From: Actinoplanes subtropicus
GTDB taxonomy: Bacteria; Actinomycetota; Actinomycetes; Mycobacteriales; Micromonosporaceae
Reading direction: 5' to 3'
Assembly (NCBI RefSeq): GCF_000721705.1
Contig: NZ_JOJL01000004.1
Location: 1 to 64,000, forward strand
DNA length: 64,000 nucleotides
Part shown: positions 5,654 to 60,182 of the stretch, one piece after another
How the letters are laid out: the number at the start of each line of letters is the position of its first letter
Position numbering within the stretch: the first letter of the stretch is position 1
Translations under genes and position numbers: made by a program
The notes under the pieces: generated by a model
The model's database searches: none
What the model was told of the DNA's origin: nothing
What the model saw: only the letters and a program-made list of their open reading frames with translations

Positions 5654-7696
5654 ATGGCACCGAAGGCGTTCGTCGACCCGGACAGCGTGCTCGCGCGCAC
5701 CGCCCTCGGCATGCTCGAGGCCCACGGCGGCGGGGCCGGCCCGAGCGAGGGCATGACCGAGTGCCCGGTCTGCGGCGAGCCCCTGCCCTGCCCGGTCGGG
5801 CAGGCCGCCGCCGAGGTCGTCGAGGCGGCCGGCCTGGCGGAGGCCTCGGGGCTGGTGGCGGCCGTGCGTCAAGGGACACCGGGCGGGTACGCGTCGCCGG
5901 TGGCGTTCGGGTCGCCGGTCGAGGCGGGGGTGTCGGTCGAGGAGATGCCGCCGTGGGCGGGGCCGTCCGCCGGGATGCCGGTCCTCGGCGGTGGGGAGCG
6001 GGTGGAGGTGTCGTTCGCGGTTCCGGGGGAGGAGATCTCGGTGGTGGCGGCGCCGCTCGGTGAGCCGTTGTCGCCGCTGGATGGGCCGTATCCGCCGTCG
6101 GCGCTCGATGGGCCGTATCCGCCGTCGCCGCTGGACGAGCCGGCTTCTTCAGACGTTGGGGACTCCTATGGCGGGCTGGCTTCGTCCGATGGTGGGGCGT
6201 CTTTCGGCGAGGCGTCTTCTGGTGGGGAGTCTTTTGGACGGTCGTCTTCTGGTGGGGCGTCTTCTGGTGGGGCGTCTTTTGGAGGGCCGTCTTTTGGCGG
6301 CCCGTCTTTTGGCGGCCCGTCTTTTGGCGGCCCGGAGCAGCCTCACGAGCCGGCTCTTCCGGCGGCCGACTATGAGCCGCCCGGGCCGCGGTTGAGCGGG
6401 CTGACCGCCGCCTCGCTGGACGACAGCTCCTTCACCGAGCAATCGCCGGAGGCGGTGCCGTCGCTCCACGCCGAGCCGCGCCTCCCCGCGATGGAGATGC
6501 CCGAGCCCGCGCCGCCGCCGGTTGCGGACGCCCGGGTCGAGCCCCCGCCGCCGAGCCAGCAACCCTGGACCCCGCCCCCAACGCCGCCCGCAGCCCAGAC
6601 CATGGCCCGCCAGCAGTACCCGTCCGACTCCGACCCGCTGCTCAGCGGCCCGCCGCAGTACCGCCCGCTGGATCGCCCCCTGGACGCCCCGCTCTACACC
6701 CCGGCGAACCGCTCGGCCACGCCACCCGCGCCCCGCCCGGTCGCGCCCATGGCGGCCCGCCCGAGCAGCCCGGCCCCCACCAACGGCACGATGATGGGCC
6801 AGACGCCCCACCTCCAGCAGCCACAGCCTCCCGTCCCGCCGGCGACCTTCGCTCCGCCGCCCGGCCCGCCGGCCCAGCCCCAGCCCCAGTCCCAGCCCCA
6901 GCCCCAGCCCCAGCCCCAGCCCGGTCAGCAGCCGATGCCCCAGAGGCCGCCGGCGCAGCAGCCGACTACTCCGCCGCCCCAGGCGAAGCAGCCGGTCGCT
7001 CAGCAGCCCGTGGCGCAGCAGCCGATCGCTTCGCAGCCCATGGCACAGCAGCCGATGAGTCAGGCGCCGATGACGCCGCCGCCGGGTGGGCAGTCGCCGA
7101 TGGGCCAGGTGCCCGCAGGTCAGCAGGCGCCGATGGGTCAGCAAGCCGCCTCTCAACGGCCCCCGATGGGCCAGCCGCCGACCACTCCCGGCGTCCCGCA
7201 GGCCGACGCGCCCAGCGGCCTCGGACTGCCCCAGCCCGACGCCCCGAGCGGCCTCGGCACCCGCCCGGCCGCCGCCGCGCAACAGCAGCCACCCACGGTC
7301 CCCAGCGCCCCAGCAGCCCGGGCCCTCACGCCGCAGCCGCAGTCCGCTCCCGACCAGAATTTCGGCAACCGCTTCGGCGGCGACGGCGGCGAGGTGCCCA
7401 GCGGCCTCGGCCTGCGCCCGACCCGTGCCCCGCTCGAGCCCCCGCCGCCTGCCCAGGCCGGCCCGCAGCCGCCCGACCAGACCGGCCCGCAGCCGCCCGC
7501 CCAGACCGCCCCGCAGCCCACCATCGGCCAGACCGCCCCGCAGCCCACCGGCCAGACCGCCCCGCGGCAGCCGCCGAACCAGCCGCCCCAGCCGGCCGGC
7601 CGCAGCACCCGCCGCAACCGCCCGCCTCTGGAGCCCCCGCAGATGGGCCAGCTCAACCGCCCGATCGGCGAGAGCGGCCAGGCCCCGAACAACTAG
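5654..7696 (+). CDS. Pro/Gln-rich low-complexity protein with N-terminal CxxC motif
   Basis: The 680-aa product starts MAPKAFVDPDSVLARTALGM and has a short ordered head containing ECPVCGEPLPC (about residues 36-46), which may bind zinc. The rest is disordered. It includes Ser/Gly/Phe repeats (SFGG, SSGGAS, about 185-225), a Pro-rich centre, a (QP)n run near 415-430, QQPVAQQP-type repeats, and PSGLGL repeats (three copies, about 515-600). GGGGCAGGAC upstream of ATG 5654 serves as the ribosome site. There is no signal peptide or membrane segment. I recognise no enzyme domain; a scaffold or cell-envelope-associated role is only a guess. Confidence 0.6.
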   Translation: MAPKAFVDPDSVLARTALGMLEAHGGGAGPSEGMTECPVCGEPLPCPVGQAAAEVVEAAGLAEASGLVAAVRQGTPGGYASPVAFGSPVEAGVSVEEMPPWAGPSAGMPVLGGGERVEVSFAVPGEEISVVAAPLGEPLSPLDGPYPPSALDGPYPPSPLDEPASSDVGDSYGGLASSDGGASFGEASSGGESFGRSSSGGASSGGASFGGPSFGGPSFGGPSFGGPEQPHEPALPAADYEPPGPRLSGLTAASLDDSSFTEQSPEAVPSLHAEPRLPAMEMPEPAPPPVADARVEPPPPSQQPWTPPPTPPAAQTMARQQYPSDSDPLLSGPPQYRPLDRPLDAPLYTPANRSATPPAPRPVAPMAARPSSPAPTNGTMMGQTPHLQQPQPPVPPATFAPPPGPPAQPQPQSQPQPQPQPQPGQQPMPQRPPAQQPTTPPPQAKQPVAQQPVAQQPIASQPMAQQPMSQAPMTPPPGGQSPMGQVPAGQQAPMGQQAASQRPPMGQPPTTPGVPQADAPSGLGLPQPDAPSGLGTRPAAAAQQQPPTVPSAPAARALTPQPQSAPDQNFGNRFGGDGGEVPSGLGLRPTRAPLEPPPPAQAGPQPPDQTGPQPPAQTAPQPTIGQTAPQPTGQTAPRQPPNQPPQPAGRSTRRNRPPLEPPQMGQLNRPIGESGQAPNN

Positions 7697-9264: not shown

Positions 9265-10998
9265 ATGGTCGACGGCCGGGTCGGGTTGCGGGCCCTGACG
9301 CCGTACCTGAATCGTTATCGCGGCACCCTCACGGTGGTCGCGGTGCTCTCGCTGGCCGCGGCCGGTGCGTCGCTGCTGCAGCCGTTGCTGGTGCGGCGGG
9401 TGCTCGACGGCGTGACCGCGAGCCGGGCGATCGCCGGGCCGGTGGCTGTGCTGGTCGGTCTCCTGGTCATCGGGGCGGCGCTGCGCGGCTTCCGGGATTA
9501 CCTGCTGCAGCGCACGGCCGAGGGCGTCGTGCTGACCACCCGGCGGCGGCTCGCGCGGCACCTGCTGCTGTTGCCGATCGCGGAGTATGACCATCGCCGC
9601 ACCGGCGACCTGCTGTCCCGGGTGGGGGCCGATACGACGCTGCTGCGGGCGGTGGTCACCTCGGGGCTGTTCGAGATCGTCACCGGCGTGGTGATGGTCG
9701 GCGGGGCGCTGGTCGCGATGGCGGTGCTCGACCCGCTGCTGCTGGCGGTGGCGGTCGGCGCGCTCGCGGTCGGGCTGTCGGTGGCGGTGCTCGCCTCGCG
9801 CCGGGTGCGCGGGCTCTCCGAGCAGGCGCAGGCCCGGCTGGGCGAGATGACCTCGGCGGTCGAGCGGGCGATCTCGGCGGCGCGGACGATCCGGGCCGGG
9901 CGGGCCGAGGAGCGTGAGGCGGCGACCGTGGCCGAGGGCGCCGAGCAGGCCTACCAGGCGGGCGTCCGGCTGGCCCGGCTCGAGGCGACCGTCGGCCCGG
10001 CGGCGGATACGGCGATCCAGGGCGCCTTCCTCGTGGTGCTCGGCGTGGGCGGGGCGCGGGTGGCCTCCGGCGCGATCGGCGTGGGCAGCCTGGTGGCGTT
10101 CATCCTGTTCTTGTTCTTCCTGGCGATGCCGCTCGGGCAGGCGCTGCACGCGTACACCCAGTTGCAGACCGGGCTGGGGGCGTTGCAGCGGATCGAGGAG
10201 ATTCTCGCGCTGCCGTCCGAAACTGCGGGAGATTCCAGCCGTACGCCCGAAGGCAGCGCGAGCACCCACCCAGCGGTCGCGTTCCACGGGGTTTCGTTCG
10301 CCTATCCCGGCGAGGCGCCGGTCTTGCATGAAGTCAGCTTCGAGGTGCCCCGGGGCGCCCGGATAGCGCTGGTCGGGCCGTCGGGGGCGGGCAAGTCGAC
10401 GATCCTGGCGCTGATCGAGCGGTTCTACGACGTCACCGGCGGCAGCGTGCGGGTCGGCGGGCACGACGTGCGTGACCTGCCGCGCGACGCGTTGCGCGCC
10501 CAGCTGGGGTATGTCGAGCAGGAGGCGCCGGTGCTGGCCGGCGCGCTGCGCGACAACCTGCGGCTGACCGCTCCGCACGCCTCCGACGCCGAGCTGCTCG
10601 CGGCGCTGGCGGAGGTGAATCTCGGCGGGCTGGCGCAACGCTCGCCGGAAGGGCTGGGCGTGCAGGTGGGGGAGGGCGGCGTGCTGCTCTCCGGCGGCGA
10701 GCGGCAGCGTCTCGCGATCGCCCGGGCGCTGCTGACCGGCGCGCCGATCCTGCTGCTCGATGAGCCGACCAGCAACCTCGACGCGCGCAACGAGGCGGCG
10801 CTGCGGGCGGCGATCGCCACGGCGGCCGACCGGCGCACGCTGATCGTGGTGGCGCACCGGCTGTCGACGGTGGTGGATTCCGACCTGATCGTGGTGCTCG
10901 AGGCCGGCCGGGTGGTCGCCGCCGGGCCGCACCGGGAGCTGCTCGACGCCAGCCCGCTGTACCGGGAGCTGGCGACCCATCAGCTGCTGGTGTCGTGA
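9265..10998 (+). CDS. ABC exporter, fused permease and ATPase half-transporter
   Basis: The 577-aa protein has six predicted membrane segments (residues about 15-300) followed by an ATPase domain. Walker A is GPSGAGKS (about 372-379), the signature is LLSGGERQRLAIARAL (from about 474), Walker B is ILLLDEPTSNLD, and the switch is VAHRLSTV. This is an ABCB-type half exporter that would dimerise in the membrane and move lipid, drug or peptide outward. The start at 9265 is placed by TACAGT (9252-9257) seven nt upstream, a leaderless-type arrangement. An in-frame start at 9184 would run into the divergent gene. secA2 follows 36 bp downstream, close enough for co-transcription. Confidence 0.9.
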   Translation: MVDGRVGLRALTPYLNRYRGTLTVVAVLSLAAAGASLLQPLLVRRVLDGVTASRAIAGPVAVLVGLLVIGAALRGFRDYLLQRTAEGVVLTTRRRLARHLLLLPIAEYDHRRTGDLLSRVGADTTLLRAVVTSGLFEIVTGVVMVGGALVAMAVLDPLLLAVAVGALAVGLSVAVLASRRVRGLSEQAQARLGEMTSAVERAISAARTIRAGRAEEREAATVAEGAEQAYQAGVRLARLEATVGPAADTAIQGAFLVVLGVGGARVASGAIGVGSLVAFILFLFFLAMPLGQALHAYTQLQTGLGALQRIEEILALPSETAGDSSRTPEGSASTHPAVAFHGVSFAYPGEAPVLHEVSFEVPRGARIALVGPSGAGKSTILALIERFYDVTGGSVRVGGHDVRDLPRDALRAQLGYVEQEAPVLAGALRDNLRLTAPHASDAELLAALAEVNLGGLAQRSPEGLGVQVGEGGVLLSGGERQRLAIARALLTGAPILLLDEPTSNLDARNEAALRAAIATAADRRTLIVVAHRLSTVVDSDLIVVLEAGRVVAAGPHRELLDASPLYRELATHQLLVS

Positions 10999-11034
10999 CC
11001 CGACTTTCAGCTAAATGAAGTACCGTTGCGCGCC

Positions 11035-13326
11035 ATGGGTGTGTCGACGCGGCTCAAGAGCCGGTTCCGCAAGTTTCTGCAGCGTCCGGGCACTACGGTC
11101 GACCTGGCGCCGTTCACCAAGCGGCTGCCGGCGATCGATGCTCGTGAGGAGGCGCTCAAAGAGCTCGACGACGAGGCGCTGACCGCGGCGGCCGGCGAGG
11201 CGAAGGACTTCACCGAGATCTGCGCGATCGGGCGCGAGGCCGCCTGGCGCGCGCTCGAGCAGCGGCCGTACGATGTGCAGCTCCTCGGCGCGATGGCGCT
11301 GCTCTCCGGCCAGGTCGCCGAGATGGCCACCGGCGAGGGCAAGACGCTCACCGCCACCGTCGCGGCGTACGGGCACGTCCGCCTCGGCCACGGCCCGGTG
11401 CACGTGCTGACCGTCAACGACTACCTGGCCCGCCGCGACGCCGAGTGGATGGAGCCGGTCTACAAGCGGCTCGGCCTCTCGGTCGGCTGGGTCACCGAGT
11501 CGTCCACCCCCGAGCAGCGCCGCGAGGCCTACCTGGCCGACGTCACGTACGTCTCGGTCAGCGAGGCCGGCTTCGACTACCTGCGCGACCAGCTGGTCAC
11601 CGACATCGAGGACCGGGTGCAGCGCGAGCTGGCCACCGCGATCGTCGACGAGGCCGACTCGATCCTGATCGACGAGGCCCGGGTCCCGATGGTCCTGGCC
11701 GGCTCGGTCACCACCGAGGCCGACCCGGTGCACGAGGCCGCCGAGCTGGTCCGCGACCTGCGCGCCGGCAAGCACTACGAGGTGGCCGAGGACGGCCGCA
11801 GCGTCGCCTTCACCGACGCCGGCCTCAAGCTGATCGAGGAGAAGCTCGGCGGCGTCGACCTGTACGCCGACGACCAGGTCGAGCACCTGTCCGCGGTCAA
11901 CGTGGCGCTGCACGCGCACGCCCTGCTGGACCGCGACGTCGACTACATCGTCCGCAACGGCGGCGTCGAGCTGATCGACGAGATGCGCGGCCGGGTCGCC
12001 CAGCGCCGCCGCTGGCCGGACGGCCTGCAGGCGGCCGTGGAGGCCAAGGAGGGGCTGAACGCCACCGCCGAGGGCGAGGTGCTGGACACGATCACCGTGC
12101 AGGCCTACGTCGCGCTCTACCGGACCGTCTGCGGCATGACCGCGACCGCGGTGCACGTCGGCGAGCAGCTGCGCGAGTACTTCAAGCTCGAGGTCGCGGT
12201 GATCCCGCCGAACACCGAGAACATCCGCGAGGACGAGCCGGACCGGATCTACTCGGTGCACGACGACCGCGACCGCGCTCTGGTCGAGGAGATCCAGATC
12301 GCCCACGAGAAGGGCCGGCCGGTGCTCATCGGCACCCTCGACGTGAAGGCGTCCGAGCTGCTGGCCAAGCAGCTGGCCGCGGCCGGCATCCCGTCGAACG
12401 TGCTGAACGCGAAGAACGACGCCGAGGAGGCCGCGATCATCGCCGAGGCCGGCGCGGTCGGCGCGGTCACCGTCTCCACCCAGATGGCCGGCCGGGGCGT
12501 CGACATCCGGCTGGGCGGCAGCGACGAGAAGGACCGCGACAAGGTGGTCGAGCTCGGCGGCCTCTTCGTGATCGGCTCCGGCCGGCACGACAGCCGCCGC
12601 GTCGACGACCAGCTCCGTGGCCGGGCCGGCCGGCAGGGCGACCCGGGCGGCTCGGTCTTCTTCGTCAGCCTCGAGGACGAGCTGATCACCCGGCACGCCG
12701 GGGACGCGCTGCCCACCTCGCCGCGGATGGACATGGACGGCGTCGTGCACGACGACCAGGTGGAGTATGCGGTCGAGCACGCCCAGCGGGTCGCCGAGGG
12801 CGTGAACCACGAGATCCACCGCAACACCTGGCGGTACAGCGTGGTGATCGAGCAGCAGCGCCTGCAGCTGGCCGAGCGCCGGGAGCGGCTGCTCACCTCC
12901 GAGATCGCGGCCATCATGCTGCTCGAGCGCTCGCCGGAGAAGGCCAAGGAGACCGACGAGGACATCCTCTCCGACGCGGCCCGGGCGATCGCGCTCTTCC
13001 ACCTGGACCGGCTCTGGGCCGAGCACCTGGCCTACCTGCAGGAGGTACGCGAGGGCGTGCACCTGCGCGCGCTGGGCAAGCTGGACCCGCTGGACGAGTT
13101 CCACCGGGCCGCCGTCCCGGCCTTCCAGGAGCTGCTGACCAAGGTCGAGGCGCGCACCATCGAGACGTTCGAGGAGACCGACCTCAGCGAGGGCTGGGAG
13201 CCGGAGCGGGCCGAGATCGTCCGGCCCAGCGCCACCTGGACGTATTTGGTGCACGACAACCCGTTCGGCTCCGAACTTGACCGGTTGATTGCCTCGGTGG
13301 GACGCCGCCTGACCGGCGGGAACTGA
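11035..13326 (+). CDS. secA2: Accessory Sec translocase ATPase SecA2
   Basis: The 763-aa protein starts MGVSTRLKSRFRKFLQRPGT and carries SecA motifs: MATGEGKTLTATVAAYGH (Walker A, about 98-105), VLTVNDYLARRDAEWM, IVDEADSILIDEARVPM (DEAD box, about 204), VSTQMAGRGVDIRLGG and GRAGRQGDPGGS. It lacks the C-terminal Zn/SecB-binding tail of SecA1 and has the shortened scaffold typical of mycobacterial SecA2. SecA2 drives export of a subset of proteins through SecYEG. The ATG at 11035 has TACCGT eight nt upstream; a TTG at 11026 is less likely. A strong terminator follows. Confidence 0.92.
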   Translation: MGVSTRLKSRFRKFLQRPGTTVDLAPFTKRLPAIDAREEALKELDDEALTAAAGEAKDFTEICAIGREAAWRALEQRPYDVQLLGAMALLSGQVAEMATGEGKTLTATVAAYGHVRLGHGPVHVLTVNDYLARRDAEWMEPVYKRLGLSVGWVTESSTPEQRREAYLADVTYVSVSEAGFDYLRDQLVTDIEDRVQRELATAIVDEADSILIDEARVPMVLAGSVTTEADPVHEAAELVRDLRAGKHYEVAEDGRSVAFTDAGLKLIEEKLGGVDLYADDQVEHLSAVNVALHAHALLDRDVDYIVRNGGVELIDEMRGRVAQRRRWPDGLQAAVEAKEGLNATAEGEVLDTITVQAYVALYRTVCGMTATAVHVGEQLREYFKLEVAVIPPNTENIREDEPDRIYSVHDDRDRALVEEIQIAHEKGRPVLIGTLDVKASELLAKQLAAAGIPSNVLNAKNDAEEAAIIAEAGAVGAVTVSTQMAGRGVDIRLGGSDEKDRDKVVELGGLFVIGSGRHDSRRVDDQLRGRAGRQGDPGGSVFFVSLEDELITRHAGDALPTSPRMDMDGVVHDDQVEYAVEHAQRVAEGVNHEIHRNTWRYSVVIEQQRLQLAERRERLLTSEIAAIMLLERSPEKAKETDEDILSDAARAIALFHLDRLWAEHLAYLQEVREGVHLRALGKLDPLDEFHRAAVPAFQELLTKVEARTIETFEETDLSEGWEPERAEIVRPSATWTYLVHDNPFGSELDRLIASVGRRLTGGN

Positions 13327-50012: not shown

Positions 50013-50519
50013 ATGGACCTGACGCCCTACCTCGAGACCCTCCGGGCCGACCTGGCCGCCGCCGCGGCGCCCGGTGGGCCGGAGACCACGCGCGCCGCCG
50101 AGATGCTCGGTCACGCGCTGGAGTCGTCGGCCCGGCTGGCGCTGCTCGAGGCGCTCTCCGACGCGGCCGCCGAGATCACCACCCGGCTCTCCGACGCCAC
50201 CGTCGAGGTGCGCCTCCGCGGCCGCTCGGCCGACCTGGTGGTCACCGAGGTCGACGAGCCGGTTTCGGTCGAGCCGGCCGCGCCCGCCGTGCCGCCGGCG
50301 GTCGACGGGGGCGACCTGACCCGGCTCACCCTGCGCATGCCCGAGGCGCTCAAGACCCACGTCGAGCAGATCGCCGCGGCCGAGGGCATCTCCGTCAACG
50401 CGTGGCTGGTCCGCGCGGTCACCGCGGCGGTCAGCTACCCGCCGCTTCCCCCCACCCCGCCGCCGACGCCTCCGAAAGGTCGTCCCGGCAAGCAGATCAA
50501 GGGCTACTTCCAGGCATAA
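50013..50519 (+). CDS. Ribbon-helix-helix (Arc/HicB-like) regulator
   Basis: The 168-aa protein has an N-terminal helical domain (about 1-70), a linker and a C-terminal RHH motif (LTRLTLRMPEALKTHVEQIA, AAEGISVNAWLVRAVTAAV). RHH proteins bind palindromes as dimers. The palindrome in its promoter, TGACGTCATCGATGACGTCA, is a natural target, and its own gene is the first downstream. It is followed 11 bp later by DUF4097. A HicB-type antitoxin role is possible, but no HicA toxin is seen. Confidence 0.8.
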   Translation: MDLTPYLETLRADLAAAAAPGGPETTRAAEMLGHALESSARLALLEALSDAAAEITTRLSDATVEVRLRGRSADLVVTEVDEPVSVEPAAPAVPPAVDGGDLTRLTLRMPEALKTHVEQIAAAEGISVNAWLVRAVTAAVSYPPLPPTPPPTPPKGRPGKQIKGYFQA

Positions 50520-50530
50520 AGGAGATCATC

Positions 50531-51346
50531 ATGTACGAGTTCGACCGCTCCACCCCCGTCACGGTCGTGCTGCGCGCGCACGGCGGCGCCGTCGAGATCG
50601 TGGCCGAGGAGCGCCTCACCGCGTCGGTCGACGTCCAGCCGATGGGCGGCAACGGGGCCGACGCCGCACAGCACACCCGGGTCCTGCTGGAGGACGACAC
50701 GCTGCTCGTCCAGGTGCCCGGCGCCGAGGCCTGGTCCTGGCGGCGCAGCCCGAAACTGCGGATCACCGTACGGGTCCCGGCCGGCAGCTCGCTGGCCGGC
50801 AAGACCGCCTCGGCCGACGTGCGGGCGCTGGGCGTCTTCGGCGACGTGCGGCTCGACGTGGCCTCCGCCGACGTCGAGCTGGGTTCGGCGACCGGGGACG
50901 TCTCGCTGGAGGCGGCCAGCGGCGACCTGACCGTGGGACAGGTCGGCGGCTCGCTGCGGGCCAAGTCGTCCTCGGGCGACCTGCGCATCGGTGACGTCAC
51001 CCATGACGTCAACGCCGAGTCGGCGAGCGGCAACATCCGCACCGGCACGGTCGGCGGCTCGGCCCGCGCCCACACCGCGAGCGGCGACATCGAGATCGGC
51101 TCGCTCCGCCAGGGCACGGCCGACATCCGCTCCGCCTCCGGCGACATCACGGTCGGCGTGGCGGCCGGCTCCGCGGTCTGGATGGACGTGAACACCAGCT
51201 CCGGCAAGTCCATCACCGACCTGACCGCCCGCGGCGAGACCCCGCCCACCGACACCCCCGCCGAGCTGGAACTGCGCGTCCGCACCGCGAGTGGCGACAT
51301 CCGCGTCCACCGGGCCGCGTCCGCCCGCCCCGCCGCGGCCGCCTGA
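50531..51346 (+). CDS. DUF4097 beta-repeat protein
   Basis: The 271-aa protein has repeated SGD-containing strands (ATGDVSLEAASGDLTVGQVG, KSSSGDLRIGDVTHDVNAES, TASGDIEIGSLRQGTADIRS), the right-handed beta-helix pattern of DUF4097. It is cytoplasmic, as no signal peptide is found. AAAGGAGATCATC precedes ATG 50531. A second copy of the palindrome, TGACGTCACCCATGACGTCA, lies inside the gene (50992-51011). Function unknown. Confidence 0.85.
   Translation: MYEFDRSTPVTVVLRAHGGAVEIVAEERLTASVDVQPMGGNGADAAQHTRVLLEDDTLLVQVPGAEAWSWRRSPKLRITVRVPAGSSLAGKTASADVRALGVFGDVRLDVASADVELGSATGDVSLEAASGDLTVGQVGGSLRAKSSSGDLRIGDVTHDVNAESASGNIRTGTVGGSARAHTASGDIEIGSLRQGTADIRSASGDITVGVAAGSAVWMDVNTSSGKSITDLTARGETPPTDTPAELELRVRTASGDIRVHRAASARPAAAA
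50992..51011. promoter_or_regulatory. Second operator-like palindrome inside DUF4097
   Basis: TGACGTCACCCATGACGTCA matches the promoter palindrome at 18 of 20 positions. It lies in codons GDVTHDV of DUF4097 and could be an auxiliary site for looping. Confidence 0.4.
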
Positions 51347-51602: not shown

Positions 51603-51639
51603 CGGCGAAAGCCCGGTGCACCCCACCGGGCTTTCGCCG
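51603..51639. terminator. Perfect 16-bp hairpin terminator
   Basis: CGGCGAAAGCCCGGTG (51603-51618) pairs with CACCGGGCTTTCGCCG (51624-51639) over 16 bp with a 5-nt loop. It lies between the convergent ends of the RHH-DUF4097 operon and the CHAT operon. No T-run, but the stem is long. Confidence 0.75.
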
Positions 51640-51698: not shown

Positions 51699-52025
51699 CT
51701 AACGCTGCGGCCCGTCGCTCATCGGCGCCCCGGCGTCCAGGTCGCCGAGATCGGCTGCCCCCATCACGGCTGCCGTCTTCTTCCGGCCGTTGAGAGCCAG
51801 GAACAGCAGGAAGAACGCGGCGAGCCCGGCCAGCAGCCCGATCGAGTACCACCCGAAGGCGTCGCCCTGGTGCGGGTCGAACAGGCCGGTCACCGCGGCG
51901 CCGCCGATGGCGCCGACCACGGTCGCGATGTCGGTCACGGCCGTCTTCCTGGTCCGCACCAGACTTCGGTACGTGAGGTAGCCGACCGTGACGCCGAAGC
52001 AGCAGGCGCCCACCGACATGACCAT
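51699..52025 (-). CDS. Small two-helix membrane protein of the CHAT operon
   Basis: The 108-aa protein starts MVMSVGACCFGVTVGYLTYR and has hydrophobic segments at about 1-18, 32-48 (IATVVGAIGGAAVTGLF) and 60-80 (WYSIGLLAGLAAFFLLFLAL). It ends in a charged tail (NGRKKTAAVMGAADLGDL). It is 3 bp downstream of the second CHAT gene. No family is recognised. Its small size and helices make a membrane effector or anchor possible, but this is inference. Confidence 0.75.
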   Translation of the reverse strand: MVMSVGACCFGVTVGYLTYRSLVRTRKTAVTDIATVVGAIGGAAVTGLFDPHQGDAFGWYSIGLLAGLAAFFLLFLALNGRKKTAAVMGAADLGDLDAGAPMSDGPQR

Positions 52026-52028
52026 GAG

Positions 52029-54086
52029 TTACTCCTGTCCGGCCACCGACGGCCGCAGAGTGAGGTTGGCGAAGCTGTATGCGGTGTACGCGAGTCCGAT
52101 GACGTTGCCCCGTGCCAGCATCGCCCAGCGGGTCGCGTGCAAGGCGACCCCCAGCGACTGCCCGTCGAGCAGGCCGGCCAGCAGTTCCTCCATCACCCGT
52201 CCGGCCAGTCCCTGCTCGACCGTGATCTCGGTGCCGACCACTCCCGAGGCACCCGCCCATTCGGTGAAAGCCGGCACAAAAGCGTTCAGTGTCCCGCTGG
52301 TCGCTTCGGCCGTGTGGCAGCCGTTGAGCAGGACGAGCGGGCGGCGGGACGACCAGTGCGGATCGGGCCACACGGTGCGGGCCCACATGGTGATGTCGAG
52401 CGGCTGCACGGTGTATCCGCCCAGGTCGAGGTAGCGGTCGGCGGCCGCGCCCGGGCTGCGCCGGTCGTATCCGCAGTGGCAGTAGAAGTAGACGACATCC
52501 ATTGCCTCCGGACCGAGCAGGGCCGCGAGCTGTTCCGGACGGGCGGCCGGAGGCCGGCGCAGGGCCGGGTCGGGCAGGCGGGCTGAGAGCCGGGTGAAGT
52601 GCTGCTCGGTGAGCTTCGCGTCGAGTGATCCGCCGACCGCGGCCAGCACCGTGACAGCGTCCCCGGCCGGCCCGACCACGGCCGCCAAGTCCCGTCCCAC
52701 GGTCGGCGGCTGTTCGAGCAGGCAGGACAGACCCCAGAAACCGTACGGGCAGAGCACGTCGCCCCGGCCGCGGTGGGTGTCCTCGTGGGGGCACAGCGGC
52801 GGAATCGGTCCACTGTGGTTGCCGCCCGGCCCGAATTCCCGCACCGCCGGGCAGACCTGGTAGCGCTCCGGATCCGAGCCGACCGGCAGATCGTAGATCA
52901 GCGACCACAGCATGGCGTGCTCGTCGAAGCGGTCGTCGACGATCTGGATCACGGGTGGCCGGCCGCGCACCCGAGCCTCGTGACGGATCAACGCCGGCAG
53001 CGTGAAGGCGACGGTGTTGTCGCTGCCGGGCGGCCGGAACAGCGCCGTGTAGAGCTCGGCCCCTTCCCGGGCGAGACGACGAAGATCTTTCTCGTACGCG
53101 TCGTAGTCCTTGTCGAAAGCCTCGCGGCCGGCGCCGTACCGTGACAGCAAGGTGTCTCCGCGGCGTTCGAAGTGGCTGTTGAAAAGGGCCGTGCGGGCAT
53201 TGAAGGCGGACGTGTCGGCCGCCCCCGCTCCGATCGCGAACGGGTTGTCCAGAAAGCCGGTGCCGTTCACCAGGACGCGTCCGGACCCGCCCGACGCCAC
53301 CACCGAGGCGGTCCGCCCGGCCAGTTTGCCGAGGTCGTTGAAGCTGCTGGTGAGTCGTCCGGCAAGCCACGCGTGCGGGGCCCGCAACGGTTCCCCGGAG
53401 GGCAGGTGCAGGCGCACCGCCACGACGGCGGCGGCCTGGTGATAGACCACGAGCTCGCCGTCGACCGCCGCCGGCTCTTCCGGCGTACGCCAGGGAAAAC
53501 GCACCCACCGCTGAGGGATGCACCCGACGTCGTGCGGTCCGTCGGGAGTGCAGCCGCAATGGAAGCTCTCGCCCGCGGGGCCGAGGAAGAACGGCACCGT
53601 CCGGGCACGGGTCTGACTGCCGAGAAACAGGACCGCTCGCAGCCAGAGGCCGCCATCCGGAAGTAGCTCGTCCGGCCACCGGGCCTCGGTGTCCGGCAGC
53701 AGACTGTCCGGCTGGTGCGGACCGATGTTGAGCAGCACCTCGTATTCGGTGGCCGGGAACAACCGGGACGCCGCCGTGTCCGCGCCGGCCCGAGCGACCA
53801 GCGTGTTGACCGATCGCGCCGGCGGCCCGGAGGCCGGCTCGTCAACCGGGGTGCCGCGCGTGCCCCAGGCTCCCGGATCGAGCAGCGGGCCGAGCCGCTC
53901 CTGCACCGCCGAGTGCCTGAGCAGCACCGCCAGTACCCGGGCAGTCGAGACCGGGTCCGCGTCGTCCAGGCCGGCCAGCGCATCCAGCAACCGCGGTTCG
54001 ACATCGGCCCAGTCGTCGTCGACCAGCTCGGGCAGGTGCGGCCAGATCAGGTCGACCGCCCACCGCAGCCGGTCCGATTTGATCAT
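52029..54086 (-). CDS. CHAT-domain caspase-like protease
   Basis: The 685-aa protein has a C-terminal CHAT domain. The catalytic His537 lies in VVYFYCHCGYD and Cys590 in LVLLNGCHTAEATSG; FTEWAGASGVVGTEITVEQ follows, as in CHAT proteases. The N-terminal 350 residues contain WPHLPELVDDDWADVEPRLL, an acidic alpha-helical region, and a middle part with FPATEYEVLLNIGPHQPDSL that I cannot assign. It starts 3 bp after the TPR-CHAT gene stop and is followed by the membrane protein gene. CHAT proteases are often activated by partners to cleave a specific target. Confidence 0.85.
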   Translation of the reverse strand: MIKSDRLRWAVDLIWPHLPELVDDDWADVEPRLLDALAGLDDADPVSTARVLAVLLRHSAVQERLGPLLDPGAWGTRGTPVDEPASGPPARSVNTLVARAGADTAASRLFPATEYEVLLNIGPHQPDSLLPDTEARWPDELLPDGGLWLRAVLFLGSQTRARTVPFFLGPAGESFHCGCTPDGPHDVGCIPQRWVRFPWRTPEEPAAVDGELVVYHQAAAVVAVRLHLPSGEPLRAPHAWLAGRLTSSFNDLGKLAGRTASVVASGGSGRVLVNGTGFLDNPFAIGAGAADTSAFNARTALFNSHFERRGDTLLSRYGAGREAFDKDYDAYEKDLRRLAREGAELYTALFRPPGSDNTVAFTLPALIRHEARVRGRPPVIQIVDDRFDEHAMLWSLIYDLPVGSDPERYQVCPAVREFGPGGNHSGPIPPLCPHEDTHRGRGDVLCPYGFWGLSCLLEQPPTVGRDLAAVVGPAGDAVTVLAAVGGSLDAKLTEQHFTRLSARLPDPALRRPPAARPEQLAALLGPEAMDVVYFYCHCGYDRRSPGAAADRYLDLGGYTVQPLDITMWARTVWPDPHWSSRRPLVLLNGCHTAEATSGTLNAFVPAFTEWAGASGVVGTEITVEQGLAGRVMEELLAGLLDGQSLGVALHATRWAMLARGNVIGLAYTAYSFANLTLRPSVAGQE

Positions 54087-54089
54087 TGC

Positions 54090-57000
54090 CTACGCGCCGG
54101 TCAGGGCGAACGCCGCCCACCAGAACGGATGGGCGAAGTCCCGGGCGTCGCCGCGGCGGATCACGGTGACGGTGAAGAACTCAGCCGCCGCCGATCCGCT
54201 CGCCCGCGAGGCGTCCAGGCCAGGCAGCTGCTGGTGGAAGTAGGCGGCCTTCTCGCCGTTGGTCGTGTCCCGCAGCCACCGTTGCGCCTGACGCAGGGCC
54301 GCCGCTGGGTCGCCGAGCTCGTGCCAGAGGGTGTGGAACCGTTCCATCAGCATCGCCGTCGCGACGTCACTGACCGTCCACAGCGAAGCGACGATCCCGG
54401 CGAATCCGGCCTGCAGCAAAGCCGTCGGCAGCGACACCGATTCGTCCGGGAGCGAGAGGCCGATCGCGCCGGTCTCGCAGGCCGAGAGGCAGGCGAGGCG
54501 GGCCGGCGGGAGGCGCCGGTCGAGCAGGTCACCGACCGAGAGCCACTGGTCGCCGGCCAGCAGCAGCCCGCTGCGCAGCGGGGCGGCCCAGTCGGTGCGG
54601 CCATGACAGGAGAGATGCACGACGCCCGATCCCGGCAGCCGGTCGAGGACCGCCTCGCGGGTCGCCTCGGTGCCGGTGAGCACCACCGGATCGGCGAACA
54701 TCCCGGCCACGGCGGCTACCTCGATCGCCGCCGCGGGCAGGGGCGACGCGGTGACGGGGGCCGGTTCGGCCACCGCGAGCAGCGTACCGCCGGAGGCGCC
54801 CGGCACGCCCCGGCGAGCGATCGTCGCAACTCGGATCGAGGGGGCGTAGGAGAGAACCAGGTCGTCCAGCGCACAGCGGATGCCGGTTGGCGCGTCCGGG
54901 TCCTCGACCTGCGCGGCGTGCCACGGAAACAGCGCGAGCAGGCCGCCCGGGATGAGCGTGGCCGCGGTCGTGCCCCGCTCCCGCAGCAGGTCCAGCAGGG
55001 GACCCATCGCGCGCCGCCAGAGCTCCCGCCCGGTGCTCTCGAGCGCGTCGAACCAGCGGTCACGGCCCTTCCCCGGGTCGTCGATCCAGCCCGCGTAGGC
55101 CGCGGTCCAGCCGTCCGGGCCGATGAGCAGGTCGCGGACGGTGACGGCGTCCAACTGGTCCAGCCACACCGCCTCCACCGCGGGCTGCGCCGCCTCGGGC
55201 TGGGCGGCCGCGGGCTGGGCGGCCGCGGGCTGGGCGGCCGCGGGCTGGGCGGCCGGGGTGAGCAGCAGGGCGACGCCGCCGTCCCGCGTGCTGATCAGGT
55301 AGACCACCGGCGGACCGCCCGCCCCGGCCAGCCAGCCGGCGATGTCGGCCCACGTCGGCGCGACCAGGAACCTCTCGTAGCCGGGCACCGCGCGAACCGC
55401 GGTGACCGCCCGCCGGTGGCTGTCCCGGGCCTGCCTGGCCCGATCGCCCGGGTCGCCGCCGGACCGTTCCAGCGCCTCGATCCGGTCCAGCTCGCGCACT
55501 GACCCGGTGTACTGCCGGAAGATCTCCGGATGGTCCTGCCAGAGTCGGTCGAGCTCGGCCCGGTCGCGGCCGAGCACGCCGCCCAGCGCCCGTGCCCGCG
55601 ACCGTTCCAGCAGCGCGACCGCGTCGCCCGGACGGCCGGCCTGGGCGAGCGCGTAGCCGGCCAGCAGCCCGGCGTGCGCGATGCGGGCCAGCGCGCTGTC
55701 CCGGTGGGCCAGGGTCAGCTGCGTCTCGTAGAGCTCGTCGAACGATCGCATGGCCCGCTCCAGGGCCTCGGCCGCGCCGGCCCAGTCGTCCTGCAGCGAG
55801 AGCAGCTCGCCGAGGCCGGCCGCGGCGATCGCCGTCCGCTCGGCCGAGACCCCGTCCCGGCCGAGGATCGCGGTGTAGCACCGGGTGGCCGCCGTGGCGT
55901 CGGCCGGCTCGGCACTCTCCCCGAAGCGCAACCGGTGCGCGTCGCCCAGGGTGAGCTGCTGCCAGACCAGCTCGGCCGGCGGCAGGTGCGGCGCCTGCTC
56001 CGCCGCCGAGGCGGCGGCGACCGCTGCCGCCAGGTCGTCGGACGAGTGGCCGGTCGCCTGATGCCGCTGCATCAGCGTTCCGGCGAGTTCGAGCTGCGCC
56101 GCGACCCAGCTCAGCGAACGTGGCTGGGGAACGTCGAGGGCGGCCCGCAAGGCGTCGACCGCGGCGGTCAGGTCTCCGGTGTCGTTGGTGATGCGGTGCC
56201 GGAGACTGAGAGTGGCGGCCAGGTCGCCGTGCCACCGCACCCACTTGGCGGTGCCCGCACCGACGGTGGCGAGCGCCTGGCGCCGCAGCGCGAGGGACTC
56301 CTCCACCGCGGTCAGATCGAAACTGTCGGCGTACCGCAGGTCGAGGGCCCCGCTGAGGGTCGCGGCCAGGTCGCCGGCACCGGCCGAACCGTCCGCCACG
56401 ACCGCGAGTGCATCCCGTAGCGACTCGATTGCGGCATCGAGGTCGGCGTAGTCACCGGTGATGTGATAGCGGGTGATCAGTGTCTCGCCGAGTGCACCGA
56501 TGGCCGTCGCCCGATGCTGTGCGTCGGCGGTCCGCACCGCCTCGCGCAGGCAGTCCAGCGCCAGCTCGATGTCGGCCGGCGCGGCGGTGCCCGCGTAGCG
56601 GGTCCGCTGGACCAGGCCGACCTGGATGAGCGCCGGCACCCGCTGCCGGGAGCCCGTCGGCAGCTCGGCCAGCAGCTGCTGGCCGAGCTCGGCGGCGGCA
56701 TCCAGGTCGGTCGGGTCGGCGGCGGCCTGGAACCGGTTCTTGAGGAGCCCGACCAACCCGTTCGTGGCCACCAGCCAGGCCGTCGACCCCCGCGGTGCCC
56801 GCGCGGCCGCCGCCCGGTAAGCGGTGATCCCGGCCTCCAGGTCGGCCGTGTCGCCGAACCGGTCGGCCAGCAGCCCGAGCGCGCTCCCGAGATTGACCTG
56901 GGCGTTCGTCCACGCCGGCGACCCGGGCGGCAATGCCCGCAGAGCCTGCCGCTGGGCGCTGACCGCGTCCAGCAGGTCCTGCCGGTCGCCTCGGAGCTGG

Positions 57001-57728
57001 AACCGGTTGTTCAGAGCGTTGCCGAGGTTGGACATCCACCGTGCCCACGACTCACTGCCGGGGGTGCCGGTCGCGACGGCAGCCCGCTGCGCGGCGACCG
57101 AGTTGTCGAGATCGGCCGGGTCGTGGCCGAACTCGAAGCGCGCCCGCAGCGCGATGCCCAGGTTGGCGGCGGCGTCGGCCCGGCTCTGCGGGCTACCCGC
57201 CGAGCGGGCCTGCCGGCCCAGACACTCGACCGCCTCGTCGAGCGCGGCCGGATCGCCGGCCGCCTGATGACGCTTGTAGAGCGCGAGTCCGTAGTTGTTC
57301 CGGATGATGTCGCTGGTTTCCCGGTCCAGCTGACCGCCCTCGGCCGCCTGCTGGTACGCCGCGATGGCGAGATCCAGATCGGAAAGCCGGCCGGTCTCTT
57401 CGAACAGGTGCAGGGCCGCCAGGGCCAGATCGGCGGAGACCGAGTCGCGGATCGGCCCGCATTCCGGCATCTCGAGCGCGGCGACCAGGCAGGTGACGGC
57501 GGCGGTCAGATCGTCGATGCCGCCACCGGCCACGTAGCGGGCGTCGAACGCGTTTCCGAGCTGCACCCGGGTGTCCATCAGGGTCAGCGGGTGGGCCTGC
57601 ACGCCAGGCGTCTGAAATACCTGGATCCACTTCTCGACCGCGACCGACCAGGCCGCCAGGGAGCCGGTCTGCTGGGCATTCGCACTGGCCGCGACGGCGA
57701 CGTCGTAGGCCCGCAAGGGAAGCGTCAT
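54090..57728 (-). CDS. TPR-CHAT caspase-like protease
   Basis: The 1212-aa protein begins MTLPLRAYDVAVAASANAQQ. Residues about 1-750 are a series of TPR-like helical repeats (LGNALNNRFQLRGDRQDLLD, LGQQLLAELPTGSR), followed by a linker with an AAQPA repeat (about 840-860). The CHAT domain is C-terminal, with His1042 in VVHLSCHGRTD and Cys1084 in LACLSACETGAIG. TPR-CHAT proteins (for example the Craspase partner in type III-E CRISPR) are activated by a target-recognition partner; no CRISPR array is present here. The gene heads the operon and probably senses a partner protein or peptide. Confidence 0.9.
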   Translation of the reverse strand: MTLPLRAYDVAVAASANAQQTGSLAAWSVAVEKWIQVFQTPGVQAHPLTLMDTRVQLGNAFDARYVAGGGIDDLTAAVTCLVAALEMPECGPIRDSVSADLALAALHLFEETGRLSDLDLAIAAYQQAAEGGQLDRETSDIIRNNYGLALYKRHQAAGDPAALDEAVECLGRQARSAGSPQSRADAAANLGIALRARFEFGHDPADLDNSVAAQRAAVATGTPGSESWARWMSNLGNALNNRFQLRGDRQDLLDAVSAQRQALRALPPGSPAWTNAQVNLGSALGLLADRFGDTADLEAGITAYRAAAARAPRGSTAWLVATNGLVGLLKNRFQAAADPTDLDAAAELGQQLLAELPTGSRQRVPALIQVGLVQRTRYAGTAAPADIELALDCLREAVRTADAQHRATAIGALGETLITRYHITGDYADLDAAIESLRDALAVVADGSAGAGDLAATLSGALDLRYADSFDLTAVEESLALRRQALATVGAGTAKWVRWHGDLAATLSLRHRITNDTGDLTAAVDALRAALDVPQPRSLSWVAAQLELAGTLMQRHQATGHSSDDLAAAVAAASAAEQAPHLPPAELVWQQLTLGDAHRLRFGESAEPADATAATRCYTAILGRDGVSAERTAIAAAGLGELLSLQDDWAGAAEALERAMRSFDELYETQLTLAHRDSALARIAHAGLLAGYALAQAGRPGDAVALLERSRARALGGVLGRDRAELDRLWQDHPEIFRQYTGSVRELDRIEALERSGGDPGDRARQARDSHRRAVTAVRAVPGYERFLVAPTWADIAGWLAGAGGPPVVYLISTRDGGVALLLTPAAQPAAAQPAAAQPAAAQPEAAQPAVEAVWLDQLDAVTVRDLLIGPDGWTAAYAGWIDDPGKGRDRWFDALESTGRELWRRAMGPLLDLLRERGTTAATLIPGGLLALFPWHAAQVEDPDAPTGIRCALDDLVLSYAPSIRVATIARRGVPGASGGTLLAVAEPAPVTASPLPAAAIEVAAVAGMFADPVVLTGTEATREAVLDRLPGSGVVHLSCHGRTDWAAPLRSGLLLAGDQWLSVGDLLDRRLPPARLACLSACETGAIGLSLPDESVSLPTALLQAGFAGIVASLWTVSDVATAMLMERFHTLWHELGDPAAALRQAQRWLRDTTNGEKAAYFHQQLPGLDASRASGSAAAEFFTVTVIRRGDARDFAHPFWWAAFALTGA
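55190..55258. repeat. 15-bp tandem array inside the TPR-CHAT gene
   Basis: GGGCTGGGCGGCCGC-type units repeat about four times and encode AAQPA repeats near residues 840-860, in the linker between the repeats and the protease domain. Confidence 0.8.
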
Positions 57729-58227
57729 GCCACACCCCGTTCGAGCATGGAACCTTCGAGCACGTGTTCTTTCAGCACGGACCGATGGATCGAGCGTGGC
57801 ACCCCCGCTCGCGGCGGACATCGCCTGAACCGGTAGTGCCGAGGTCCGATGGCCGACACGTCAGGCAACGGGAACGGACCGGCCGCCGCGGTTCCTGGGC
57901 CGGCCGCCGCACCCCGAAGCCCGACGGCCGGAACGCCCCTTGCGGTGCGGGCGGCTCATCCGCGCCGCCCGGACCGCTGGCCGGCTGCTGGCCAAACCCG
58001 GCGACCCCGAGCCCTCGGCATCGGCGATGAGAACCTGGAGCGCGCGTGGGCCATGCCGCGCGTGGGCGTGGGCGTGGCGCGCGCGGGGCGTGGGCGTGGC
58101 GCGCGGGGGCGTGGCGCGCGGGGGGCGTGGCGCGCGGGGGCGTGGCGCGCGGGGGCGTGGCGTGGCACTGGGGTTCGGGGTGCCGGCCCGGCCTGTGGCC
58201 GCCGTCGCCTGCGGCTGCCCGGGCTGG
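57729..58227. other. 500-bp region without a supported gene
   Basis: Open frames exist on both strands but are shaped by the GC-rich repeat. No ribosome site or family resemblance supports them. Contains the promoter region of the TPR-CHAT operon on its left. Confidence 0.5.
58054..58165. repeat. GC-rich tandem repeat downstream of the LuxR-type gene
   Basis: GCGTGGCGCGCGGGGGCGTG and close variants (GCGTGGGCGTGG) repeat about seven times, directly downstream of the 3' end of the response regulator gene. Confidence 0.75.
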
Positions 58228-58926
58228 TCAGGCGCCGGGTTTGACGAGGCCGGTCTCGTAGGCGAGGACGACCGCCTGGGTGCGGTCGCGCAGGCGCAGC
58301 TTGGTCAGCACGTGGCCGACGTGGGTCTTGACCGTGGTGTCGCTGACCTGCAACGCCGCGGCGATCTCGGCGTTGGAGTGACCGCGGGCCACGTGGACGA
58401 GGACCTCGCGTTCCCGGTCGGTCAGCGTGTCGAGCTTGGCGGTCACGGTCGTCTCCGGGGCGGGCAGCGCCTCGGCCACCCGGGTGAGGATGCGGGCCAG
58501 CACACCCGGGCTGATCACCGCGCCGCCCGCCGCCACCGCCCGCACGGCCGAGACGACCTCCGCGGGTGGTGCGTCCTTGCACACGAACCCGGCGGCCCCC
58601 GCGGCGATCGCCCCCAGCACCTGCTCGTCGGCGTCGTGCGCGGTCAGGATCAGCACCCGCACCGGCAGCCTCGCCGACGTGACCGCCCGCGCGACCGCGA
58701 GCCCGTCCAGCCGGGACAGCGGTATTTCGGCGATCAGCACGTCGGGCAGCAGCCGCCGGGCCAATTCGACCGCCTCGGCGCCGTCCCCCGTCTCGCCCAT
58801 GACGACGATCTCCGGTCCGCCGCCGTCCGCGTGCGTCGCCAGAACCATACGCAGGCCGGAGCGGTGCATCGGCGCCGGGTCGGCCAGCAGCACCCGCAAC
58901 GGCCGCTCGCCCCTCGTCCCGCTCAC
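58228..58926 (-). CDS. LuxR/NarL-type regulator with degenerate receiver
   Basis: The 232-aa protein has an N-terminal receiver-like domain and a C-terminal LuxR helix-turn-helix (LTDREREVLVHVARGHSNAE, IAAALQVSDTTVKTHVGHVL). The receiver departs from the family: the usual acidic pair reads ADPAP (Asp16 followed by Pro), and the phospho-acceptor position reads Glu67 in DVLIAEIPLSRLDG instead of Asp. The Lys near FVCKDAPP is kept. It may be always active or respond to something other than phosphate. No kinase is adjacent. The GTG at 58926 is the most likely start. Confidence 0.85.
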   Translation of the reverse strand: MSGTRGERPLRVLLADPAPMHRSGLRMVLATHADGGGPEIVVMGETGDGAEAVELARRLLPDVLIAEIPLSRLDGLAVARAVTSARLPVRVLILTAHDADEQVLGAIAAGAAGFVCKDAPPAEVVSAVRAVAAGGAVISPGVLARILTRVAEALPAPETTVTAKLDTLTDREREVLVHVARGHSNAEIAAALQVSDTTVKTHVGHVLTKLRLRDRTQAVVLAYETGLVKPGA

Positions 58927-58953
58927 CGCGCGCCTCGCCCCCTCAGCCTCGCC

Positions 58954-59005
58954 CTCTCGGTCCCGCCTCTCGGTCCCGCCTCTCGGTCCCGCCTCTCGGC
59001 TCCGC
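58954..59005. repeat. 13-bp tandem repeat, 4 copies
   Basis: CTCTCGGTCCCGC repeats at 58954, 58967, 58980 and 58993 between the LuxR-type gene start and the RecB-like gene stop. Not a multiple of three; it lies outside the supported coding sequence. Confidence 0.85.
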
Positions 59006-59036
59006 GTGTCGGCCCCGCCTCCGGTCCCGCCTGGCG

Positions 59037-60182
59037 TCACCCTAGGCGATCGTCGTCGGCGGGGGTGAGGTCGACGCTGACCGGCTCGTCGGCCGGGAAC
59101 GGCGGTGGCGTGCCGCCGAACTCGGGGCACAGAGCCCGGTGGCTGCACCAACCGCAGAGCCGGCTGGGTTTGGGGCGGAAGTCCTGCTCGCGTTTGGCCC
59201 GCTCGATCGCCTCGGACAGGGCGACCAGGGTGCGCTCGAAGCGCTCCAGCTCGTCGGCGTCGGGGCTGTAGTCGCAGACCTCGGCATCCTTCAGGTAGAG
59301 CAGGCGCAGCACCCGCGGGACGACGCCCCGGGTGCGCCACAGGACCAGGGCGTAGAACTTCAGCTGGAACAACGCCCGGCCCTCGAACGCCTCGCGCGGG
59401 GCGCCGCCGGTCTTGTAGTCGACCACCCGCAGGTCGCCGGCGGGGGAGACGTCGAGCCGGTCGATGTAGCCGCGGATCAGCAGCGTGTCGTCGACCATCG
59501 TGGAGATCAGCGCCTCGCGCTCGGCCGGTTCGAGGCGCCGCGGGTCCTCCACCGCGAAGTAGCCGTCGAGCAGGGCGGTGGCGCTGCCCAGGAACGCCGC
59601 CAGCCGGGCCGCCTCGTCGACGGCCGGCACGTCGATCAGCGCCGGCTGCCCGGTGGCATCCGCCTCGGCGAGCAGGGCGGCGGGGTCAAGGCGGGGCTGA
59701 AGGGCGTCACCGGCGGCCGCAAGGCGCGGCTGGGGGGCAGCCGCGCCCAGACTGAGGGCGGCGGAGGGCGCGCCGAGTGCGGGGGCGGTGGCGTCGACGG
59801 GCGCGTCGGGCGCTGGGCCGGCGGCGTCGAGGGGCGCGCCGGGGGCGCGGGTCGGGCGTCGCGGGGCGGTGGCGGCGGCGAAGATGGCGGCCAGCTCGGG
59901 TTCGGCCTCGAGGAGCGCGGCCCAGGAGGGCTCGACCAGGGCGGCGGCCGCGGTCGGCGTGCGCTCGGCGGCGGGCAGGTCGAAGAGGCGTTCCAGGACG
60001 GCGTGGACCAGGGTGCCTCGTACCTGATCGGCCGTCGGCTGCTCTTGAAGTTTGTCTATGGTGCGGAAACGGAACAGCAGCGGGCAGGTCTTGAAGTCGG
60101 CCGCGCGGGACGGCGACAGCGAGGGGCCGGCGAAGGGGAGGGCGGAGCTTGCCGGAGAGCCGGGGGCCGTCTGTGCCGTCAT
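59037..60182 (-). CDS. RecB-like PD-(D/E)XK nuclease
   Basis: The 381-aa protein has the RecB-family core: GTLVHAVLERLFDL (about 55), LLIRGYIDRLDVSPAGDLRV and VVDYKTGGAP (the D-x-K pair), and a C-terminal CGWCSHRALCPEF, a Cys cluster typical of iron-sulfur RecB-type nucleases. An Ala/Pro-rich insert (about 105-170, ATAPRRPTRAPGAPLDAAGP) is unusual. It is similar to Rv2119 of M. tuberculosis, also next to trmI. ATG 60182 has TAGCCT 7 nt upstream. Its role is DNA repair, inferred from the family. Confidence 0.88.
   Translation of the reverse strand: MTAQTAPGSPASSALPFAGPSLSPSRAADFKTCPLLFRFRTIDKLQEQPTADQVRGTLVHAVLERLFDLPAAERTPTAAAALVEPSWAALLEAEPELAAIFAAATAPRRPTRAPGAPLDAAGPAPDAPVDATAPALGAPSAALSLGAAAPQPRLAAAGDALQPRLDPAALLAEADATGQPALIDVPAVDEAARLAAFLGSATALLDGYFAVEDPRRLEPAEREALISTMVDDTLLIRGYIDRLDVSPAGDLRVVDYKTGGAPREAFEGRALFQLKFYALVLWRTRGVVPRVLRLLYLKDAEVCDYSPDADELERFERTLVALSEAIERAKREQDFRPKPSRLCGWCSHRALCPEFGGTPPPFPADEPVSVDLTPADDDRLG

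Follow-up and report, generated by a model that had tools for sequence, protein, structure and literature searches.

A CHAT peptidase and a small conserved membrane protein form a recurrent gene pair, joined in Actinoplanes subtropicus by a TPR-CHAT gene

The EACC1-caspase system, System 4 of Kaur et al. (2020, eLife 9:e52696, PMC7159879), is presented in the portions of that paper devoted to it as a two-gene, membrane-associated conflict system prevalent in actinobacteria. There, EACC1 is described as a small, strongly conserved transmembrane (TM) protein; the adjoining gene codes for a caspase-superfamily peptidase whose exchangeable modules number up to 50 and include EF-Tu. In bacterial and fungal protease-gasdermin pairs, according to the sections of a second paper that treat them (PMC12881547), a membrane executor is encoded beside interchangeable proteases, CHAT included, and a fungal TPR-bearing CHAT protease activates a gasdermin. 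Here we analyzed a stretch of 64,000 nucleotides of Actinoplanes subtropicus (contig NZ_JOJL01000004.1, positions 1 to 64,000; hereafter the window) that harbors a cassette of three genes coding for a TPR-CHAT protein, a second CHAT protein called CHAT2, and a small membrane protein. The conserved unit is CHAT2 with the small protein. None of the papers listed in searches of the open-licence PMC literature treats this pair, which is undescribed within that scope; its plan is akin to that of the EACC1 system. We tentatively read the cassette, with a probability of about 0.4, as a protease switch of caspase fold, linked to the membrane and serving defence or cell death, in which the small protein would be cut as the target.

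The three genes follow one another head to tail on the minus strand, in the order TPR-CHAT, CHAT2, and small protein, and the open reading frames (ORFs) and their coordinates bear out the 3-bp gaps reported in the initial annotation. TPR-CHAT (P0001; 54090..57821) is an ORF of 1243 amino acids (aa) with a C-terminal CHAT peptidase domain and the dyad His1073/Cys1115. An alternative start at 57728 yields a protein of 1212 aa, the same length as the database copy P0100, and in that numbering the dyad is His1042/Cys1084. CHAT2 (P0002; 52029..54086) has 685 aa and the dyad His537/Cys590, and its constant partner, the small membrane protein (P0003; 51699..52025), has 108 aa and three predicted helices. 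GGAG is found a few bases 5′ of the start of the small gene, where it overlaps the end of CHAT2. The Pfam CHAT profile PF12770 (cut-off 24) matched TPR-CHAT with 177 bits (E 5.6e-52) and CHAT2 with 38.1 bits (E 1.6e-9). Both proteins hence combine a profile score above the cut-off with a His/Cys dyad, confirming that the two catalytic pairs are intact, as claimed from the first inspection. For the small protein, Pfam returned subthreshold matches only. At E <= 0.001, TPR-CHAT has 322 relatives besides itself, the closest among the best 120 being 40% identical, and CHAT2 has 38, in searches that scored about 8,000 candidates only; the small protein has 58, one of which is 97% identical.

Loci were then gathered by searches with the small protein alone, giving 12 loci on genome contigs (10 kept), 5 of 249 genomes of the order, 4 of 394 of the class, 12 of 67 of the genus, and one plasmid record. 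L011 and L012, 40-residue partial matches inside other genes, and L053 (class, E 8.5e-4) were dropped as probable chance matches. L067 (a copy of L066), L110 (the same as L010), and L068 (a fragment bounded by insertion sequences) were also left out. Merging left 28 distinct loci, with the window counted. A CHAT2 relative adjoins the small protein in 24 of these (23 of 27 without the window): the window, L001 to L008, L033, L034, L035, L040, L051, L063, L111 to L118, and L120. L040 is the weakest, as its CHAT2 is split into two ORFs located 0.8 to 0.9 kb from the small gene; L003, in which CHAT2 is frameshifted close to its end, was kept as found. Several loci are close kin (L004/L005, L114/L115, L116/L117, and L118 to L120), so that independent events are fewer. 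Two extra pair loci, L064 and L066, came from the CHAT2 search and lie outside the 28. The small protein is rare in the order and the genus, at the frequencies given above, and it is linked to CHAT2, so we rejected the notion, considered in the initial annotation, that it might be a common, unrelated membrane protein.

In two further loci, another caspase-fold protein takes the place beside the small protein. L052 has a convergent TPR-CHAT instead of CHAT2, and in L009 of Polymorphobacter glacialis (Sphingomonadales; 9989-12467) a small-protein relative is followed by an astacin (M12A) and then a Peptidase_C14 caspase gene. L010 carries the small protein with no such peptidase in view, and L119 carries it without CHAT2. 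L119 and L120 are syntenic loci in two congeners, with flanks 88-94% identical in DNA, and the approximately 1.8 kb missing from L119 cover the greater part of CHAT2 in L120.

The pair occurs in Actinomycetota, including plasmid copies in Streptomyces and Rhodococcus, and on contigs of metagenome-assembled genomes of Acidobacteria (two) and Planctomycetota (family Gemmataceae), where misbinning is possible (L006, L007, and L008). Among 25 tabulated loci, the small gene comes after CHAT2 on the same strand in 15, before it in 6, and convergent to it in 4. Of the 300 locus pairs formed by the 25 loci, conservation is higher in the small protein than in CHAT2 in 298 when all model columns are used, in 295 over the CHAT2 body, and in 288 over its peptidase part; identity averages 47% in the small protein and 29% in the CHAT2 body. 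The pairwise distances of the two proteins correlate (r 0.73, 0 of 5000 permutations), host kinship being uncorrected.

The predicted helices of the small protein span residues 2-24, 29-48, and 54-87 (pLDDT 65). Ten positions are invariant across 47 aligned small proteins (G15, G41, G42, V45, T46, F49, F57, Y60, G63, and L64), all within the predicted helices or at their ends. The loop between TM1 and TM2 is net positive in 47 of 47 proteins, which suggests that it is cytosolic, and arginines R20 and R24 are conserved. The charged loop, the two arginines, and the co-divergence with CHAT2 would also suit a role as membrane anchor or sensor, to which CHAT2 would dock and by which it would be activated upon membrane perturbation, the substrate being elsewhere. 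This explanation draws on the proposal in print for EACC1, likewise a small conserved TM protein, whose caspase neighbor carries variable modules, EF-Tu among them (PMC7159879, in the passages on that system). The presence of the small protein beside the C14 and astacin genes of L009 and the TPR-CHAT of L052 would be unexpected for an anchor specific to CHAT2, but these are two loci only. We consider an anchor or sensor nearly as likely as the executor that we favor, in which the small protein is itself the protease target.

CHAT2 proved to be a modular protein. Its N-terminal half, described at first as unassigned, divides in a structure model (pLDDT 84.9) into a variable helical N-terminus (residues 1-88, helical segment 4-74), a beta-rich domain (residues 91-286) with the motif C177xC179...H185...C189, and the start of a two-part separase/Csx29-like peptidase, which contains C412, C432, H438, and C446 in addition to the dyad. 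Across the family, a constant body made of the beta-rich region, the peptidase, and the invariant cysteines is joined to a swappable N-terminus, for which caspase, LRR, complete EF-Tu, CATASP, and LysM modules were found. A C14 domain is additionally present in two listed relatives (P0005 and P0013), and the CATASP matches are those of P0032 (31.7 bits) and P0038 (28.5 bits, just below the cut-off of 29). In Streptomyces massasporeus, a complete EF-Tu with its GTPase motifs kept is fused to CHAT2 (L004:6769-9975 and L005:6781-9975), and a Streptomyces coeruleorubidus protein has nearly the same length and start; the fused EF-Tu is possibly a bait or a sensor. The N-terminus of another relative, P0006, has a subthreshold match to EACC1 (PF19953) at residues 112-171 (12.3 bits, cut-off 23.6, E 0.17), which may hint at a link between the CHAT2 and EACC1 families.

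The cassette resembles the EACC1 system in that a small conserved membrane protein adjoins a caspase-superfamily peptidase with swappable modules including EF-Tu. However, the single TM helix of EACC1 is accompanied by alpha+beta extensions, whereas for the small protein of the cassette three helices are predicted and PF19953 gave no match at E up to 10, a range in which the search filters remove most matches above 0.1. In addition, the EACC1 system modules follow a C14 caspase, whereas CHAT2 has a C-terminal CHAT and a variable N-terminus, and an extra CHAT gene is possible in cassette loci. As the small protein differs from EACC1, the modules are on the other side, and no C14 followed by a variable C-terminal module was found, the cassette is not a member of System 4. 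Nor was it assigned by profile to Craspase, whose Csx29 is a TPR-CHAT protein: TPR-CHAT of the window scored 34 bits against the Csx29 profile NF041237 (cut-off 300) and CHAT2 gave no match, in an analysis that included no search for CRISPR genes. A caspase cascade lies downstream of SAVED-CHAT. CHAT2 shares the CHAT domain with that protein (PDB 8tl0; Foldseek E 4.5e-7, profile E 0.0059), and Pfam detected no SAVED domain in it. CATASP is common to CATRA systems and the two CHAT2 relatives P0032 and, just under the cut-off, P0038; no CATRA or CATASP was found in P0001 to P0003 at E up to 10, and the cassette was not assigned to these systems, which are mentioned in passing in passages of PMC12657218 and PMC8195603.

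We then asked how often CHAT2 has a second CHAT gene for a neighbor. CHAT2 relatives, many of them distant, are present in 17 of 249 genomes of the order, 6 of 394 of the class, and 15 of 67 of the genus, and we viewed 42 CHAT2 loci with their flanks (the window, L001-L008, L033-L042, L051, L059-L066, L111-L118, and L120-L125). At least 9 of the 42 have a second CHAT gene adjacent to CHAT2, and none was seen in the other 33. The count of nine is a lower bound, because not every neighbor was scanned (L039 and L042 were screened) and the in-house CHAT profile missed distant ones, such as those of L065, L116, and L117, found by Pfam or annotation. L004 and L005 also contain degenerate CHAT2-like fragments (at 5.9-6.2 kb), which were not counted. 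TPR-CHAT thus appears to be an optional partner, and its status as obligate third member was rejected. Of the three-gene module put forward in the initial annotation, it is the CHAT2-small protein pair that stood.

The nine second CHATs differ in type and layout. TPR-CHAT shares the operon of CHAT2 in the window; the second CHAT is a divergent 1110-aa ORF in L001, a tandem gene in L061, a divergent gene with CHAT at residues 203-348 in L066, and a convergent gene for a 2591-aa CHAT protein in L122, and L041 has two divergent CHAT2-like genes. The order is annotated CHAT, 477-aa gene, and CHAT2 in L065, and CHAT, 467-468-aa gene, CHAT2, and convergent small protein in L116 and L117. Five of the nine loci also have the small protein (the window, L001, L066, L116, and L117), and both catalytic residues of the second CHAT are alignable in the window, L001, L061, and L122. 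The set of two CHATs and a small protein therefore recurs, but with differing second CHATs and layouts and perhaps differing activity. The 467-477-aa proteins encoded between two CHAT genes (L065:2484-3914, L116:12583-13983, and L117:5708-7111) have similar starts (...ESFDSTRATA...), and the two of the three that were scanned had no Pfam match. Elsewhere in the genome of the window, a CHAT-rich stretch (L126; G000:C2:305000-324900) has three CHAT matches by Pfam and two ORFs by the in-house profile.

In the executor model, CHAT2 would be a separase/Csx29-like cysteine protease whose exchangeable N-terminal module decides which signal it answers to, and the three-helix protein would be its constant membrane partner. 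TPR-CHAT would act with CHAT2 as a second, optional protease, most likely as an upstream sensor or activator. A threat signal would render the protease or proteases active, and a membrane target, most likely the small protein itself, would be cut. The cut would turn a dormant membrane protein into a membrane-damaging one and the cell would stop, as proteases do with gasdermins. Protease activity, the order of activation, the target, and the role in defence or cell death are what we infer. Three points favor the small protein as executor: its conserved residues lie inside the helices; besides CHAT2, it is paired with other caspase-fold genes, at two loci; and fungi provide the TPR-CHAT/gasdermin precedent. 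The likeness to protease-gasdermin pairs is that of a membrane protein adjoining interchangeable proteases with CHAT among them (PMC12881547, in the sections cited above).

Several observations weigh against this model. The small protein is present at 26 of the 42 CHAT2 loci and was not detected at 16, although L059, which begins at a contig edge, is uninformative in this respect. The orphan small proteins of L010 and L119 fit a dormant substrate and equally an anchor. The TPR-CHAT of L052 retains His but lacks a Cys where the catalytic one would align, and in L066, L116, and L117 the Cys of the second CHAT aligns whereas no His can be aligned; a second active protease is therefore not general. 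No cleavage site was identified in the small protein. PADLOC 2023 contained no model matching P0001 to P0003 at E up to 1, and neither one scan of viral contigs (query A1) nor one search of phage records (P0003) gave a match, leaving a phage or viral origin unsupported. Finally, the structure model of the small protein is weak; Foldseek with this model found no match at E <= 0.001, and Pfam found no gasdermin profile. As a 108-aa helical membrane protein without a gasdermin match, it differs from the executors of gasdermin pairs, among which the cassette was not placed.

The catalytic residues of CHAT2 were compared between loci with and without the small protein. All 25 single-ORF CHAT2 proteins beside the small protein keep both residues, and L040 has one on each of its two CHAT2 pieces. 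Among the 16 without the small protein, the dyad is intact in 11; Cys is replaced by Ser in L036 and His by Arg in L037, in the kindred L038 and L039, Cys is missing from the aligned place and His is uncertain, and L062 is unreadable at His. This contrast is suggestive only. Dyad retention in the linked proteins could also mean that the small protein is an inhibitor, an immunity partner restraining the protease whose loss is toxic, and its persistence where CHAT2 was deleted (L119) would agree with this, as an antitoxin can be kept. Nevertheless, 10 CHAT2 loci whose dyad is intact and whose sequence extends to either side (L059 excluded), including the close relatives L121 and L122, have no detectable small protein. 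It would then be dispensable for tolerating an active protease, unless other inhibitors substitute, and we regard this explanation as quite improbable.

The surroundings of the cassette indicate how it may have been acquired. On its left are plus-strand genes (50013..51346), HicB-like (50013-50519) and DUF4097-like (ending at 51346), which are shared by 8 of 10 congeneric RecB loci. On its right and outside it are minus-strand genes (58228..60020) for a LuxR-type response regulator (stop at 58228) and a RecB-family exonuclease; all these names were given by eye. RecB matched in 19 of 20 genomes and LuxR in 8 of 10 congeneric loci. The genus-conserved flanks, judged by eye and with some genes unfound at some loci, are HAD, HicB-like, and DUF4097-like on the left and LuxR, RecB, and M50 on the right. 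The cassette is missing from all 10 congeneric loci examined (L089-L098). In L091-L094, 0.2-0.9 kb separate the DUF4097-like gene from LuxR, and the two genes are oriented toward each other. By eye, the interval of L092 and L094 consists of a short ORF and a hairpin, then the LuxR stop within some tens of bases; about 0.3 kb follow the hairpin in L091, and the interval of L093 is made up of some 0.9 kb of other sequence. In the window, a short ORF and a hairpin are followed by the three genes and then the LuxR stop, for a distance of 6.9 kb from DUF4097 to LuxR. That hairpin is a perfect 16-bp inverted repeat (51603..51639, arms 51603-51618 and 51624-51639), a putative terminator. As hairpins occur at the equivalent place in L091, L092, and L094 (by eye), the left boundary of the insertion probably lies at this repeat. 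Two other genes lie between LuxR and the left-flank genes in L095, L096, and L097, showing that the interval is variable. The simplest reading of these comparisons is that the three genes arrived together as one insertion. A GC-rich short tandem repeat, CGCGCGCCACGCCCC-like by eye, lies between the LuxR gene and the cassette (58060-58180).

A common insertion, like the 3-bp spacing within one operon, speaks against TPR-CHAT being a mere passenger, a neighbor captured with the pair and having no joint function with it. So do the unrelated second-CHAT types and layouts at 9 of 42 loci, well above what chance would give from 9 CHAT genes in 11.3 Mb (less than 1% per locus by a hand estimate that ignores tandem duplication). 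TPR-CHAT proteins are nevertheless common, with 9 CHAT matches in this genome and more than 300 relatives, no second CHAT was seen at 33 of the 42 loci, and several of the nine second CHATs lack an alignable catalytic residue. On balance, a passenger role seems somewhat unlikely.

Many of the named actinomycete hosts are filamentous. As named hosts are mostly actinomycetes, the system might act, not in defence, but in the development or programmed cell death of hosts that are filamentous and sporulate, and the L035 pair is preceded by a HisKA_3 kinase (Pfam) and a LuxR-like regulator (BLAST to that of the window). However, its patchiness in the genus (12 of 67 genomes), the plasmid copies, and the contigs of other phyla fit an accessory conflict gene better, making a developmental role improbable. 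Various other genes are found around the pair. Hen1 and Pnkp RNA-repair genes directly precede it in L034 (3349-10121), and LRR-CHAT2 and the small protein are beside an ankyrin-repeat protein in L033 (4959-10557) and L064 (3576-9033), in two layouts, one of them on a Rhodococcus aetherivorans plasmid. A PADLOC scan of nine neighbor or relative proteins gave three matches: PDC-M72A for the L033 ankyrin protein (E 7.6e-49), mad2 for the methyltransferase portion of the L034 Hen1 (E 1.4e-9), and one for an AbiGi-like gene close to L063 (E 2.9e-6). In L002 of Streptomyces plumbidurans, a gene beginning MDLTPYV (5883-7357), similar by eye to the HicB-like flank gene of the window, adjoins CHAT2.

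In a bolder and decidedly unlikely extension of the executor model, the small protein would represent a new family of membrane executors set off by proteases, a helical equivalent of the gasdermins that is common to CHAT2, TPR-CHAT, and C14 caspase modules across phyla. CHAT2 would be the exchangeable-sensor protease, including EF-Tu bait, and TPR-CHAT the upstream activator of a two-step cascade ending at the membrane. The naturally lost CHAT2 dyads and the natural CHAT2 deletion of L119 provide built-in controls, and the swapped N-termini (LRR, EF-Tu, caspase, CATASP, and LysM) offer a ready-made panel for probing the signals that such proteases perceive. Should the small protein be an executor or a switch of caspase-fold proteases, it would represent a cell-death component outside the gasdermin family, of about 108 residues and conserved over phyla.

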